Below, in pieces: positions 1-22,051 of a DNA stretch of 64,000 nucleotides. How positions within the stretch are numbered: the first letter of the stretch is position 1; each line of letters begins with the position of its first letter. This DNA comes from a virus. The position numbers and the translations under genes were made by a program. A model generated the notes under the pieces. That model did not search any database. It was given only the letters and a program-made list of their open reading frames with translations, and was not told where the DNA came from. Location: IMG/VR virus record IMGVR_UViG_3300049324_000002, positions 82,491 through 146,490 of that record; one strand, 5' to 3'.

Positions 1-2600
1 GTTCGGATCGATTCGCCTCGGCTCGCGTAGTCAACTGAGAAGGAAAGATCTGAATGGAAGAGTCGGACTGGAAACGTCGAGGGCTGACCTGAAACGAGTA
101 GTCGGACTAGGAATGCCAAGAAACGATTAGCATCGAGTAGTCGGAATAGAATAGCTAAGGCAAGACAAGATCAGTCGGAACAGACAGGACTCGCAAAGGA
201 ACAGAAGTGCCATGAGTAGTCGGTCCGACGTGAATCGACAATGTTAGGAATAGTCGTACGGGGCCGATACGCCTCGACTTGAACTGTCGAAACGAAATGA
301 CTTGGCGGGCATGGAGAAGTCGGTCTAGAAACGACAAGATCTGCAACGGCTAGTCAGATCGGAGGGAATTGACTGGTATGGAAGCGGGAAGTCGGATGGG
401 GAATGACTGGATTGGAAAGCGGGTAGTCACGCGAGACGAATCGACACGCATAGTCGAACAGACATGATAGGAAACGCGTCGAGTAGTCGTCAAGGACTGA
501 CCCGACACGAGTAGTCAAAAGGCACGCATCGTCTGGAAACGAGTAGTCAAACGGGGTGAATCGCCACGCACAGTCAACCGACTCGATCTGACCCGTAAGG
601 AAACGAGTAGTCGGAAAGAAAGGAAGCGAAGACGGAACGCGTCGAGTAGTCGGAACGGATGAGTAATGAAATCGCATCGCCACGAGTAGTCGGCATGGCA
701 GGGGAGAGGCGAGAGTAGTCGAAAGGACGTGAACCGATATGAATAGATTCGTCGTATCGAGCTGAGGGGATGAGAAACGCATCGCGTAGTCAGACGGGAC
801 TGGACATGATTAGTCGGATAAGACGTGAGCGGTAAAGAGTAGTCGGAAGTGTGCCGCTAGGACCTGACACGTCAAGCGAACAGAGTCGATCTGACCCGTC
901 AACAGAAGTGACACGTAAAGAATAGTCGGACCCGGAAGGTAGGGAACGGACCTGACACGTCACCAGAGCAGAAGTGGCACGCAAAGAGTAGTCAACTGAC
1001 ACGGAGTGAGTGGACGTGGATAGCGTAGTCAATCGAGACGACCCGAAACGCAAGGAGAAGTCGGAAAAGATACGGACAGAAAGTGGATTGAGTAGTCATA
1101 CGAGACGACACGGAACGTAAGGAGAAGTCGTGCGATTCGAATCGATAGGAATCGAAGTAGAGTAGTCGAACGGACCCGACGTGGGAGGAAAAGGGCAGTC
1201 ACCTGACCCGGCGCGGACCGAGCGGGAAAGAGTAGTCGAGGTGGAGAGCCCAGAATCGATCTGTCGAAGCGGACCGAACGGTCGTGAATTGAGTAGTCGT
1301 ACTGAGTTGGAATCGAGTGGGAATGAGTAGTCAACTGAGCGGAATTGTACAGAGTAGTCAAACGAATCGAAGCGGTATCGCGCGGGAATGAGTAGTCGCA
1401 CAGTATTGAGCGGGCTCGCGTTGAGTAGTCAACTGACACGAAGGGACGTGGCACGATCCGTCAGGTCACATCGCATCGAATAGACGTGAGTAGTCGAAAC
1501 GAAGGGAAACGACTCGGGTCGGCTCGAACAGAGATGTCGAAACGAATCGGCGGGATATGGAAAGTCGTAACGGGTCGGCGGGATGTGAGATGTCGAAAAG
1601 ATAAGACACGACCGGAAAAGAAGAAAGAGACGCGACTGGTCGAACGAAAAGAATCGGAATGGATCGCGTAGACTCGTCACCAGAACAGAGCGGGTCGGTA
1701 GTGATCTGTCGGGCGACAAGACACGGCGCGATGTGAAAAGTCGAAAGAAACGACCTGAACCGTAGAGCATCGACAGGTCGCTGGGAACGAATTGTCCGGG
1801 CCAGAGAAGTCACACGAGTGGGAACGAATAGGTCTGTCACTCGAAATGAGTTGACGCGGTAATGGGTAGTCAAGTGAAAAGACGTGGCAGGAATGGACGT
1901 GAGTAGTCACACGATCCGATATGATCGGAAGGGACTTGTCGGTATAGTAAGAATGGATCGGTGACGATCAGTCGAATAGACCGGGAACGACACAACGCGA
2001 CATGAGTAGTCAATCGAATCGATAAGCGTGGCATGGACTTGTCGGACTAGCAAGGACCAGAAAAGATCTGTCGAACGGACCTGACTCGACCAGCATGGAC
2101 ATGAGTAGTCAACTGACACGGATCGAGTGGCATGGACTTGTCGAAACGAAGGGATACGCCTCGACTTGACCTGTCAAAAGACCGGAAAGGACCAGACTCG
2201 ACGCGATAGGTCACATCGAAACAAATAGACGCGAATCGTCAAACGATAAGACAAGATGCGAAACGACTGGACCTGTCGAAATGATCGGACGGGCAGTGAT
2301 TTGTCAAATGAAGCGATTGGACGGGAAATGACACGTCACATGAATCGACCGGGAGCGACCCGATAGGTCGTACGAAGTGAAAGGGCAGGAAAGGACATGT
2401 CAGCATGAACAGAAATGTAGCGATCTGAACGGTCGTGCAGAAGTGGGGTGATGGGAAAGGACATGTCAGTGCGAATGGACCGGGCATGACTTGCCACGTC
2501 AAGCGACCAGACCAGACTAGACTCGAAGCGATAGGTCGAACAGGAACGACGCGACTCGATAGGATATGTCACAACGACCGGAATCGACGCGTCACGACGC
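1..2600. repeat. Pentamer-word array (GANNN)n/GTC, gene-free
   Basis: A stretch of about 2.6 kb without a convincing gene, running from the window edge. On the + strand it is built of 5-nt words starting GA (sometimes GG), interrupted by GTC followed by 4-5 nt. From about 2226 the pattern is almost perfect: GTC blocks of 7-8 nt, then two to six GANNN words, with GTC-to-GTC distances mostly 27-38 nt and often 32. In the left 1.5 kb the last word before GTC is usually GAGTA, giving GAGTAGTC about every 30-60 nt. The words are not copies of one another; only phase and first bases are kept. Long open frames on the - strand follow from the TCNNN phrasing, lack ribosome sites and give Ser/Arg/Thr-rich nonsense. 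Confidence 0.85.
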
Positions 2601-2614
2601 GATATGTCACACGA

Positions 2615-2633
2615 TACCCAGACCACTGGGGTA
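2615..2633 (-). terminator. Hairpin between tRNA-Lys and pentamer array
   Basis: The sequence TACCCAG, a 4-nt loop ACCA and CTGGGGTA form a 7-bp stem with one bulged G. It lies downstream of the tRNA and separates the leftmost minus-strand operon from the array. Confidence 0.5.
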
Positions 2634-2708
2634 CCACCATCATACCCCACCCGGCCACCGCCACTCAAACAAAAGCAAAAGAACACAAACAATAAAACGG
2701 TGCAGCCG

Positions 2709-2780
2709 TGCCCCCAGGGAATTCTGCCATCCCGACCCACGCTTTAAAAGAGCGTTGCTCTGCTTCTGAGCTATAGGGGC
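2709..2780 (-). tRNA. tRNA-Lys (UUU) with aberrant D and T loops
   Basis: A 72-nt cloverleaf can be folded. The acceptor GCCCCTA pairs with TGGGGGC, the D stem GCTC pairs with GAGC, and the anticodon stem ACGCT pairs with AGCGT around the loop CTTTTAA, anticodon UUU. The variable loop is 5 nt and the discriminator is A; no CCA is encoded. The elbow is abnormal: the D loop AGAAGCA lacks the GG pair, and the T loop GGCAGAA lacks TTCRA, with a T-T mismatch closing the T stem. It begins 10 nt after the stop of the 2791 gene, so it is probably processed from that operon's transcript. It could be a decoy or nuclease-resistant tRNA rather than a normal elongator. Confidence 0.7.
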
Positions 2781-3267: not shown

Positions 3268-3369
3268 CTACCGACGATTCTCCAACAACCAACACACGCC
3301 AAAAACAATCAAAGCCAACAAAAACATACCAAGCAGTATGTAAAGAAGAACACCCAACGACTCTAACAC
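3268..3369 (-). CDS. Single-pass membrane micro-protein, 33 aa
   Basis: GTG at 3369 overlaps the TAG stop of the upstream gene (TAGTG). One hydrophobic segment (about residues 7-29) is followed by the polar tail ENRR. It ends CGT CGG TAG inside the CGGTAGGA ribosome site of the next gene, the same arrangement as the genes ending at 10237 and 17083. Function unknown. Confidence 0.6.
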   Translation of the reverse strand: MLESLGVLLYILLGMFLLALIVFGVCWLLENRR

Positions 3370-3602
3370 TAAATAGCCTCAATACTATCAGCCCACTGCC
3401 GCGCCCACTGACCAATCCTAGAAAAAAACTCCTCTTTCTCACCATCAGAGAGACCGCGAAACAAATTAGAATAAGTAGAACTAGCTTCAACCCGAACACG
3501 CCACTCAGCATCCAACAACTTATTAAGCATACGTATTTTCTCAGAAGAAGAAAACAAAATTATATACTGATTAAACGTATCATCAACTTTAGAATCAGAC
3601 AT
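3369..3602 (-). CDS. Small helical paralogue with LS[DE] motif, 77 aa
   Basis: ATG at 3602 overlaps the end of the 3595 gene by 8 nt. The protein is predicted helical, with a C-terminal motif FRGLSDGEKEEFFSRIGQW that recurs in its neighbours at 3595, 3806 and 4283 (consensus LS[DE]xxxxE[FLV]xxR[ILV]). This points to tandem duplication. No known domain recognised. Confidence 0.8.
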   Translation of the reverse strand: MSDSKVDDTFNQYIILFSSSEKIRMLNKLLDAEWRVRVEASSTYSNLFRGLSDGEKEEFFSRIGQWARQWADSIEAI

Positions 3603-3813
3603 CAGAACCACCCGGGCCAAACTCGATATCTAACCTATCATTCAACTCGCGCATCTGACTCTCCGACAACCCACTAACCATAGCAGCAAACTCACCATCA
3701 AGCTTGCATGCAATATCAGTCACATGATCTAACTTAACTCTAGCCTCGCTAACATCAGCTTTCGCTGACTGTAAATCACGAAACACCACAATGATTTCAA
3801 TAATCTCATCCAT
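3595..3813 (-). CDS. Small helical paralogue with LS[DE] motif, 72 aa
   Basis: ATG at 3813 overlaps the end of the 3806 gene by 8 nt. The N-terminal half is a heptad-like helix (LQSAKADVSEARVKLDHV), followed by VSGLSESQMRELNDRLDIEF, the family motif. It is probably an oligomeric coiled-coil protein of unknown role. Confidence 0.8.
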   Translation of the reverse strand: MDEIIEIIVVFRDLQSAKADVSEARVKLDHVTDIACKLDGEFAAMVSGLSESQMRELNDRLDIEFGPGGSDV

Positions 3814-4039
3814 TAGAACCACCCGGCAAAGCATTAACACGCTCAGTCAACTCACCACGCTGAGCCTCAGACAACCTACGCAACGCAACACCATACCGAT
3901 CAATAGACCTCTCCTGCACACCCAACGCCTCATCCAACAACTTCCTAGCCCGACCCACCCGAGCCTTATCCTCCTGCAACGTCACATAAAGGCGAAAAGC
4001 TGTGTACACATCGTCGAAATCGTCAGTGCGAAGTATCAT
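3806..4039 (-). CDS. Small helical paralogue with LS[DE] motif, 77 aa
   Basis: Its ATG overlaps the TGA stop of the upstream 4036 gene (ATGA). An acidic start (MILRTDDFDD) leads to a long helix, then LRRLSEAQRGELTERVNAL, the family motif. Same operon and probably the same fold as the 3595 and 4283 products. Confidence 0.8.
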   Translation of the reverse strand: MILRTDDFDDVYTAFRLYVTLQEDKARVGRARKLLDEALGVQERSIDRYGVALRRLSEAQRGELTERVNALPGGSNG

Positions 4040-4296
4040 GACCCCTTCAACTCTCCACCACTAAACGCATACGTCCAACCAGCATCCACAACATGACGAA
4101 CCAACGCGTCACTCGCGTCCTCACCGAAACTAGCCGCTATATAAAGAATCTCCTCACACAACAACGCACGCTGCAACCGCACACCCAACTTCTCAAAACC
4201 AGGACGCGACCACTCACGACGACAAGAAGACAACGCAATCTCAAACAACCCAGCCGTATCAACATTAAAATCAGTATTACTATTAGTGCCAGGCAT
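4036..4296 (-). CDS. Hypothetical protein, 86 aa
   Basis: ATG at 4296 overlaps the 4283 gene by 14 nt. A longer frame upstream would add a Trp-rich extension made of antisense composition. The product is mixed alpha/beta with two Cys (SSCRREW, LLCEEIL) and lacks the LS[DE] motif although it sits inside that gene cluster. Unknown function. Confidence 0.75.
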   Translation of the reverse strand: MPGTNSNTDFNVDTAGLFEIALSSCRREWSRPGFEKLGVRLQRALLCEEILYIAASFGEDASDALVRHVVDAGWTYAFSGGELKGS

Positions 4297-4537
4297 CAGG
4301 ACCACCACCCTCCGACACCACTGACCCGGCCACACCCAACGACGCCAAACGGTCATTCACCTCTTGAACCTCACCATCAGACAACCCACTCAGCAAACTA
4401 CAAAACCGAGCGTCCGCGTTATTCTTCGCGATCTGCGCCTTCAACAACTCCTGCTGAGCCAACTCAACACCCACACGAGTCTCCTGCAGCACGCGATACG
4501 CATCAAGGGTTTCAGTAACAACATCAACACTGTCCAT
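4283..4537 (-). CDS. Small helical paralogue with LS[DE] motif, 84 aa
   Basis: First gene of this sub-operon, with ATG at 4537. It holds a long central helix (VELAQQELLKAQIAKNNA), then LLSGLSDGEVQEVNDRLASL, the shared motif, and a Gly-rich tail. A TTGACA at 4571-4576 lies upstream but has no good -10 at 16-18 nt, so its promoter is unassigned. Confidence 0.8.
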   Translation of the reverse strand: MDSVDVVTETLDAYRVLQETRVGVELAQQELLKAQIAKNNADARFCSLLSGLSDGEVQEVNDRLASLGVAGSVVSEGGGPDAWH

Positions 4538-5422: not shown

Positions 5423-5559
5423 CACTCATCACTCGCATCCCGGACAGCCCTACGACGATCAGTACTACGCACCCGAGCCCTACCATGAGAACCCGCAGCA
5501 CCGGACCAACGCAGGCGCTGTACGCGCGCCACGCGGGCCGGAACCGGCTGCCTGGCCAT
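5422..5559 (-). CDS. Arg-rich basic peptide, 45 aa
   Basis: This short gene fills the gap between its neighbours exactly. Its ATG overlaps the upstream stop (TGATG) and its TGA overlaps the next ATG (TGATG). The product is very basic (14 Arg), begins MARQPVPARVARVQRLRW and is richer in GC than its surroundings. It probably binds nucleic acid or ribosomes. An apparent Pro/Tyr-rich plus-strand frame here is its shadow. Confidence 0.65.
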   Translation of the reverse strand: MARQPVPARVARVQRLRWSGAAGSHGRARVRSTDRRRAVRDASDE

Positions 5560-7921: not shown

Positions 7922-8209
7922 CTACCGGAAAGCGTAAGCCTCCTGCTCGGCAACGTGCTCCAAAGGCTGGCCAGCCCGCTGAGCACGACGCTTCAACGAC
8001 CGACGCTCATCCTCAGACAAACCACCCCACACACCAGCATCCTGTCCAGACTTCAAAGCCCAGATCAAACACTCAGTAGCGACGGGGCACCGACGACAAA
8101 CCGCCTTCGCCTTATTAACCTGCACCAAAGCAGGACCACTTTGCCCTACAGGAAAAAACATCTCCGGATCCTCTTTACGACAAGCAGCACGGTGACGCCA
8201 ATCAGCCAT
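7922..8209 (-). CDS. WhiB-family iron-sulfur transcription regulator, 95 aa
   Basis: Four cysteines at 10, 38, 41 and 47 (C-x27-C-x2-C-x5-C) match the Wbl [4Fe-4S] ligand set. GVWGG follows, then a basic tail (RRSLKRRAQR) typical of WhiB C-termini. ATG at 8209 follows GGAGG by 8 nt. WhiB-like proteins partner with the principal sigma factor in actinobacteria, and phage copies are known to interfere with host Wbl function; here it could switch host or phage transcription. Length is normal for the family. Confidence 0.95.
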   Translation of the reverse strand: MADWRHRAACRKEDPEMFFPVGQSGPALVQVNKAKAVCRRCPVATECLIWALKSGQDAGVWGGLSEDERRSLKRRAQRAGQPLEHVAEQEAYAFR

Positions 8210-8299
8210 CGGAAACACCTCCTCGCCACTAAGAACAGGACACCCACGTCCTACCCAACAACACCAAGGAAGGAAGCAGAGATATAAAGCATACAACAA

Positions 8300-8345
8300 C
8301 GACACGAGGGTGCAACCCATTTACATGAGATGCACCCTCGTGTCG
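8300..8345 (-). terminator. 15-bp perfect inverted repeat terminator
   Basis: CGACACGAGGGTGCA, a 16-nt loop and its exact complement. It follows the lipoprotein gene on the minus strand and closes that operon ahead of the WhiB gene. Confidence 0.85.
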
Positions 8346-21976: not shown

Positions 21977-22051
21977 CCACCTAGGTAGGGAGTCGAACCC
22001 TACTTACCACCCCCTCACGAAGTGGCGTCCTTCCGACTAAACGACTAGGTA
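21977..22051 (-). tRNA. tRNA-like gene with irregular anticodon arm
   Basis: A cloverleaf can be drawn. The acceptor TACCTAG pairs with CTAGGTG, the D arm GTTT/GGAC carries GG in its loop, and a normal T arm has GTTCGACTC. The anticodon arm does not fit the rules. It pairs best as CCACTT/GGGTGG around CGTGAGG, or with a standard-length loop gives GUG without U33. The anticodon therefore cannot be assigned (His GUG or Ser UGA are candidates). It has its own MTN-type promoter and terminator, so it is a real transcription unit. No CCA encoded. It may be a tRNA mimic. Confidence 0.6.

Follow-up and report, generated by a model that had tools for sequence, protein, structure and literature searches.

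What is encoded by a long stretch of a phage genome that lies outside genes and in which the same letters return every five nucleotides (nt)? The question is raised by the left end of a 64,000-nt window (the whole stretch of DNA that was analysed), which corresponds to G000:82491-146490, where G000 is IMG/VR virus record IMGVR_UViG_3300049324_000002, a 146,490-base actinophage contig. An earlier note, made from the letters of the window, had described its first 2.6 kb as GANNN pentamers punctuated by GTC. Our analyses very strongly favor the region being a guide-RNA array of a system like VIPR (Viral Interference Programmable Repeat) in an actinobacteriophage. VIPR was described in a 2026 preprint as phage RAMP proteins with vrRNAs of alternating GGY and NN (PMC13142463), so that the statement in the earlier note that no element with this grammar had been described no longer holds.

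Grammar and extent of the array

The 5-nt periodicity of GA was confirmed against 200 dinucleotide-preserving shuffles. In window 1-2617, GA-GA pairs at lag 5 numbered 156, compared to 48.9 +/- 5.9 (maximum 64) in the shuffles, and a parse into GTC and GANNN scored 573 against 28 for the highest shuffle. The enrichment of GA was 3.2x at lag 5, 2.3x at lag 10 and 2.0x at lag 15, and was flat right of position 2620. GTC spacing, given previously as 27-38 nt, had peaks at 27/28, 32/33 and 37/38 nt (i.e., 7-9 nt plus 4-6 pentamers), and GAGTA was, as reported, the commonest word in the place before GTC. The array passed the left edge of the window as predicted, by 1,366 nt, giving a main array of ~4 kb (G000:81125-85107). 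Its right end was at 2617 rather than 2600, and two further arrays were present on the same contig. The three arrays together have 145 GTC blocks, and elsewhere in the 146-kb contig our detector of GTC-punctuated G[A/G]NNN arrays scored nothing.

Window 1..2617, + strand: right two thirds of the main guide array, ~78 GTC-delimited blocks (shuffle test, parse and block counts).
G000:81125-82490: left part of the main guide array, ~42 more blocks.
L005 10680-11294 (same contig): second array, 18 blocks.
L003 10129-10351 (same contig): third, small array, 7 blocks.

The array is non-coding, in agreement with its assigned location outside genes. Eight of its longer chance open reading frames were compared with Pfam and PHROG, none matched a family, and a coding origin was dropped for this reason. 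BLAST searches of GenBank phages with the array, and with 20 kb of the phage, found no match, and a search for known RNA families turned up only a tRNA.

Analysis of 385 internal pentamers showed that position 1 was G, position 2 was A in 67% and position 3 was A or C in 77%, while positions 4 and 5 were near-uniform (0.02 and 0.05 bits). Since the third letter is conserved, the unit is GAM-NN and not GA-NNN; the period and the GA of the original description stood, and its three free letters did not. The unit is therefore a conserved trinucleotide, GAM, alternating with a hypervariable dinucleotide, NN. Each block in the main array was laid out as GTC, 0-2 nt and AMNN, then (GAMNN)4-7, with mostly 5-8 units per block in this phage. 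The blocks have only GTC and the scaffold letters in common, which upheld the proposal that phase, not sequence, is conserved, and there is no identical repeat unit, as expected of an array that had been judged not to be CRISPR. One block illustrates how a guide is read.

Window 1494..1536, + strand: example guide of 8 units, GTCGAAAC GAAGG GAAAC GACTC GGGTC GGCTC GAACA GAGAT, which decodes as AC-GG-AC-TC-TC-TC-CA-AT.

The same layout was found in relatives (881 GA-type and 2,936 GG-type units), which mostly have GG in place of GA and in which NN was flat (0.01 and 0.02 bits, n=2,936). A short true tandem repeat, GTATTAAAAGAATC, breaks the grammar inside the array of one relative (L029, reverse complement, 5428-5498).

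A gapped code and a RAMP gene linked to the arrays

To read the blocks, we masked the arrays in 2.4 Mb of phage DNA and looked there for the NN string of each block at skips of 0-3 bases. Among guides with at least 8 units, skip 1 produced eight exact hits from two guides, whereas skips 0, 2 and 3 produced none, nor did three shuffles at any of the four skips. Two guides from homologous arrays were decoded. The 9-unit guide of L097 (GT-CG-GG-CC-CA-GG-CT-GG-AA) matched at 18/18 letters on VRGPHGLGK, recognised from its motif as a phage terminase Walker A, and this target was present in two phages, whose sequences diverge at the skipped wobble bases. In IMG/VR the L097 pattern occurred in at least 120 contigs, and in 101 of the 120 examined the skipped base fell on a sense wobble position. 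The L094 guide (AA-GT-GC-GA-GG-TG-CT-AA) matched at 16/16 letters on KVAEGWLK of the RAMP (vipr) gene in other phages. In both cases the skips fell on wobble bases, and the matches started and stopped at GTC boundaries, neither running past a GTC. As the decoded matches are bounded by GTC on both sides, one block is one guide; guides running across GTC, which had also been considered, were not supported by these two cases. Thus, the skip-1 code and the guide boundaries hold in two homologous arrays. Two contigs with the terminase target of the L097 guide (L237 and L247) have GTC arrays themselves, so that targets and shooters overlap.

The small array of this contig adjoins the following gene.

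L003:9247-10017, - strand: RAMP gene, 256 aa, with a C-terminal glycine-rich loop (G-loop), GVGASRSGGFGRY.

Relatives of the 256-aa protein were found in IMG/VR (48), in a Streptacidiphilus prophage and two actinobacterial metagenome-assembled genomes, and, among GenBank phages, in a Microcystis phage; the G-loop was kept in 39 homologs. An AlphaFold model (39 sequences) had a pLDDT of 86, and the best 50 PDB matches listed by Foldseek were all CRISPR RAMP complexes, either Csm3 or type VII Cas7 (E from 1e-6, prob 1.00). In addition, several homologs matched the PADLOC models of Csm4, Csm3 and Cas6. Seven types of VIPR have been published, of which type II of phage SUSP1 has been characterised (PMC13142463). 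Comparison by hhalign of our RAMP family with the SUSP1 Vipr family, for which Vipr was taken as ALH47069.1 on grounds of size and place, gave P=6.4e-5 over 117 columns running through the G-loop. Together, the predicted fold and these alignments indicate that the 256-aa protein is a Cas7-like RAMP remotely related to SUSP1 Vipr. No nuclease was seen at the locus, and the neighbours examined included no further cas gene. In both this contig (L003:8078-9223) and G001 (L088:2576-3697), the gene that comes after the RAMP gene encodes a clamp-loader subunit of DNA polymerase.

An array was found in 37/37 RAMP-homolog loci examined, almost always on the strand opposite the RAMP gene. As a control, the detector was run on 241 loci of unrelated phage contigs; above its threshold were only two ordinary tandem repeats, plus three contigs that proved to be real arrays themselves. 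A set of 78 loci from an earlier pattern search consisted mostly of chance matches to the pattern and was set aside. On the far side of the array there was, in at least 25 loci, a conserved partner gene of ~180 aa. Its product had no convincing Pfam match, weak PHROG hits, no PDB fold match for an all-helical model and no similarity to SUSP1 vap1; it resembles the vap gene of VIPR loci in position only.

Proposed mechanism, strand and alternatives

We propose that each GTC-to-GTC block would be one guide of 5-8 GAM-NN pentamers, possibly released by processing at GTC. By analogy with SUSP1, Cas7-like RAMP subunits from the same phage would polymerise on the guide, one per pentamer, with GAM held in the protein and NN presented for pairing. 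A double-stranded DNA (dsDNA) target would then be read as NNxNNxNNx (two letters in three), the skipped base usually being a codon wobble position. By binding DNA, as in SUSP1, the ribonucleoprotein may shut down genes of phages that compete with this one or of rival VIPR-like systems. The idea that the array is read by one contact every 5 nt was, in our judgement, right. Of the options offered for the reader, the RNA-guided complex was the one to survive, based on NN decoding as gapped DNA targets in homologous arrays and on the RAMP gene beside the arrays.

Several observations weigh against this interpretation. The 82 guides of 6 or more units in this phage showed no skip-1 enrichment in the phage DNA searched. 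The homology to published Vipr is remote, with an hhalign probability of 64%. The scaffold is GAM here (GG-N in relatives) and GGY in SUSP1, and guides have 5-8 units here, compared with 9-16 and individual tails there. The main array runs antisense to the operon beside it, where room for a separate promoter is not obvious. Lastly, a helicase match is a candidate target only. Guide G000:81567, left of the window (TT-CC-GT-CC-TG-TC-TC-AA), had 20 IMG/VR matches, of which 17/20 were antisense and skipped a wobble base, and many lay in the helicase Walker A LFDEQGTGKT; this motif stays a candidate because other guides, too, show phase-clustered redundant hits.

Against its own genome and related phages, the guides of this phage matched at chance level, and its 8-unit guides had 8, 17 and 10 scattered hits in three other scans of IMG/VR. 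The example guide had no convincing target, with 10 scattered IMG/VR matches. One guide-target search was discounted as biased, its database having included earlier hits. One guide, CG-AA-CG-CT-TC-TA, was common to this phage and a 63%-identical relative on different scaffolds (0 in 10 shuffles), which is suggestive only.

The G-rich (+) strand is probably the transcribed strand, as judged from the element at the array end.

Window 2618..2665, + strand: probable 3' end element of the main array, TACCCAGACCACTGGGGT...CATCATACCCCACCCGGCC, seen directly, with a putative function.

A near-identical, hairpin-containing element closes the second array (L005 11294-11345). The 2618..2665 element could be a 3' tail or a terminator, possibly with a pseudoknot. 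Directly 3' of 2/3 arrays in a relative (L101, reverse complement, after 7940 and 9810) are strong hairpins of the TGCCGGGGAG...CTCCCCGGCA type, which are possible terminators or tails.

The alternative that survives best, although we consider it unlikely, is that the functional RNA comes from the C-rich (-) strand by co-transcription with the flanking genes, namely as an antisense leader with NNKTC units and GAC punctuation. In its favor, arrays located upstream closely adjoin a gene of opposite orientation, the distance from array end to start codon being at most 40 nt in 23 of 31 (median 19 nt), which leaves little space for a divergent promoter. However, published vrRNAs are of the G-rich strand (YNNGG) and have a 3' tail (PMC13142463), and the conserved hairpin element is at the 3' end of the G-rich strand, as in the published vrRNA design.

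Two alternatives offered in the earlier note dispense with guides. A protein-binding DNA scaffold for partition, packaging or compaction, in which the duplex is read every half helical turn, would suit a long, non-coding, purine-rich array with a 32-nt spacing of about three turns. We regard it as very improbable, because the spacings of 27.5 and 37.5 nt are out of helical phase, NN is near-uniform yet decodes as real gapped targets in relatives, and a CRISPR-type RAMP travels with the array in all 37 loci. Still less credible is an unstructured sponge RNA titrating a ring protein with one contact per 5 nt (TRAP, for example, binds NAG repeats), since, for all its accord with the period of 5 and the purine-rich sequence, a sponge needs no information in NN, yet the homologous guides match fully under exactly one skip rule, and the arrays come with a RAMP instead of TRAP.

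Beside the main array, at window 2709-2780 (-), is a tRNA gene by Rfam RF00005 (45.6 bits) that was missed by ARAGORN; its anticodon loop, CTTTTAA, makes it probably Lys-TTT. ARAGORN called a tRNA-Ser at window 21977-22051 that Rfam does not report. Four small adjoining open reading frames at window 3369-4537 (-) have a common motif like SGLSDGEVQEVNDRL, which suggests a tandem family of small paralogues; several short adjacent frames left of the array, at L002:7133-8616 (-), also resemble mutual paralogues. A WhiB-like transcription regulator at window 7922-8320 (-) points to an actinobacterial host. The GC content of the contig, ~50%, is low for most actinophages.

Comparison with known systems

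The guide array and its RAMP gene share with VIPR a phage-encoded RAMP with an RRM core and G-loop, a period-5 unit in which a conserved trinucleotide is followed by two hypervariable letters (GAM/NN here, GG-N/NN in relatives), and a two-gene locus of RAMP and accessory gene with arrays in intergenic regions. VIPR reads dsDNA with one base skipped per unit, and the preprint reports wobble alignment of the skips and some vrRNAs aimed at rival VIPR systems (PMC13142463). Likewise, a 1-nt skip on wobble bases was found here in two homologous arrays, and the L094 guide matches the vipr gene of other phages. In the SUSP1 genome, GG-every-5 runs adjoin the Vipr gene, and the published SUSP1 vrRNA shares this GG-every-5 design with the present arrays.

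In type II of SUSP1 there are 4 vrRNAs, each consisting of 9-16 YNNGG repeats with a structured tail at the 3' end (PMC13142463). In contrast, there are 145 blocks in one phage here, the guides abut with GTC as sole delimiter, the hairpin element occurs only at the end of the whole array, and the accessory protein is different. Blocks of mostly 5-8 units, delimited by GTC and with a hairpin only at the array end, indicate that this is not VIPR type II. We tentatively suggest, as a possibility short of an even chance, that the array represents a VIPR type outside the seven published, having 145 very short GTC-delimited guides, a GAM scaffold, its own accessory protein and wobble-tolerant guides at the most conserved phage motifs (terminase Walker A, rival vipr). 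The VIPR "staggered arrays with overlapping vrRNAs", presented in fig. S18 as adjoining guides without clear separators (PMC13142463), are possibly of the same type.

With these arrays, the gapped RNA code is seen to reach CRISPR scale, both in actinobacteriophages and in a Microcystis phage. As its grammar (GTC delimiter, GAM/NN unit) is readable, guides can be extracted and targets predicted from sequence alone. If a separate type is involved, the size and diversity of the array would imply an unknown way of gaining new guides in an interrupted code, which raises the question of how new guides get written when the information breaks off every two bases.

Class 1 CRISPR-Cas systems (type III-A Csm3, type VII Cas7) share with this locus the Cas7-like RAMP fold (Foldseek E 1e-6) and a guide array and, as proposed here, one subunit per repeating guide segment. 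They differ in that the present array has no identical repeats with contiguous spacers, its period is 5 and not 6, it is phage-borne, and the neighbours examined include no other cas gene. In TIGR-Tas systems, the Tas proteins have a Nop domain. A phage-borne array of short tandem guides serving a small protein is common to TIGR-Tas (PMC12045711) and this locus, which differs in having a RAMP as its linked protein and a gapped code of period 5 in its array.
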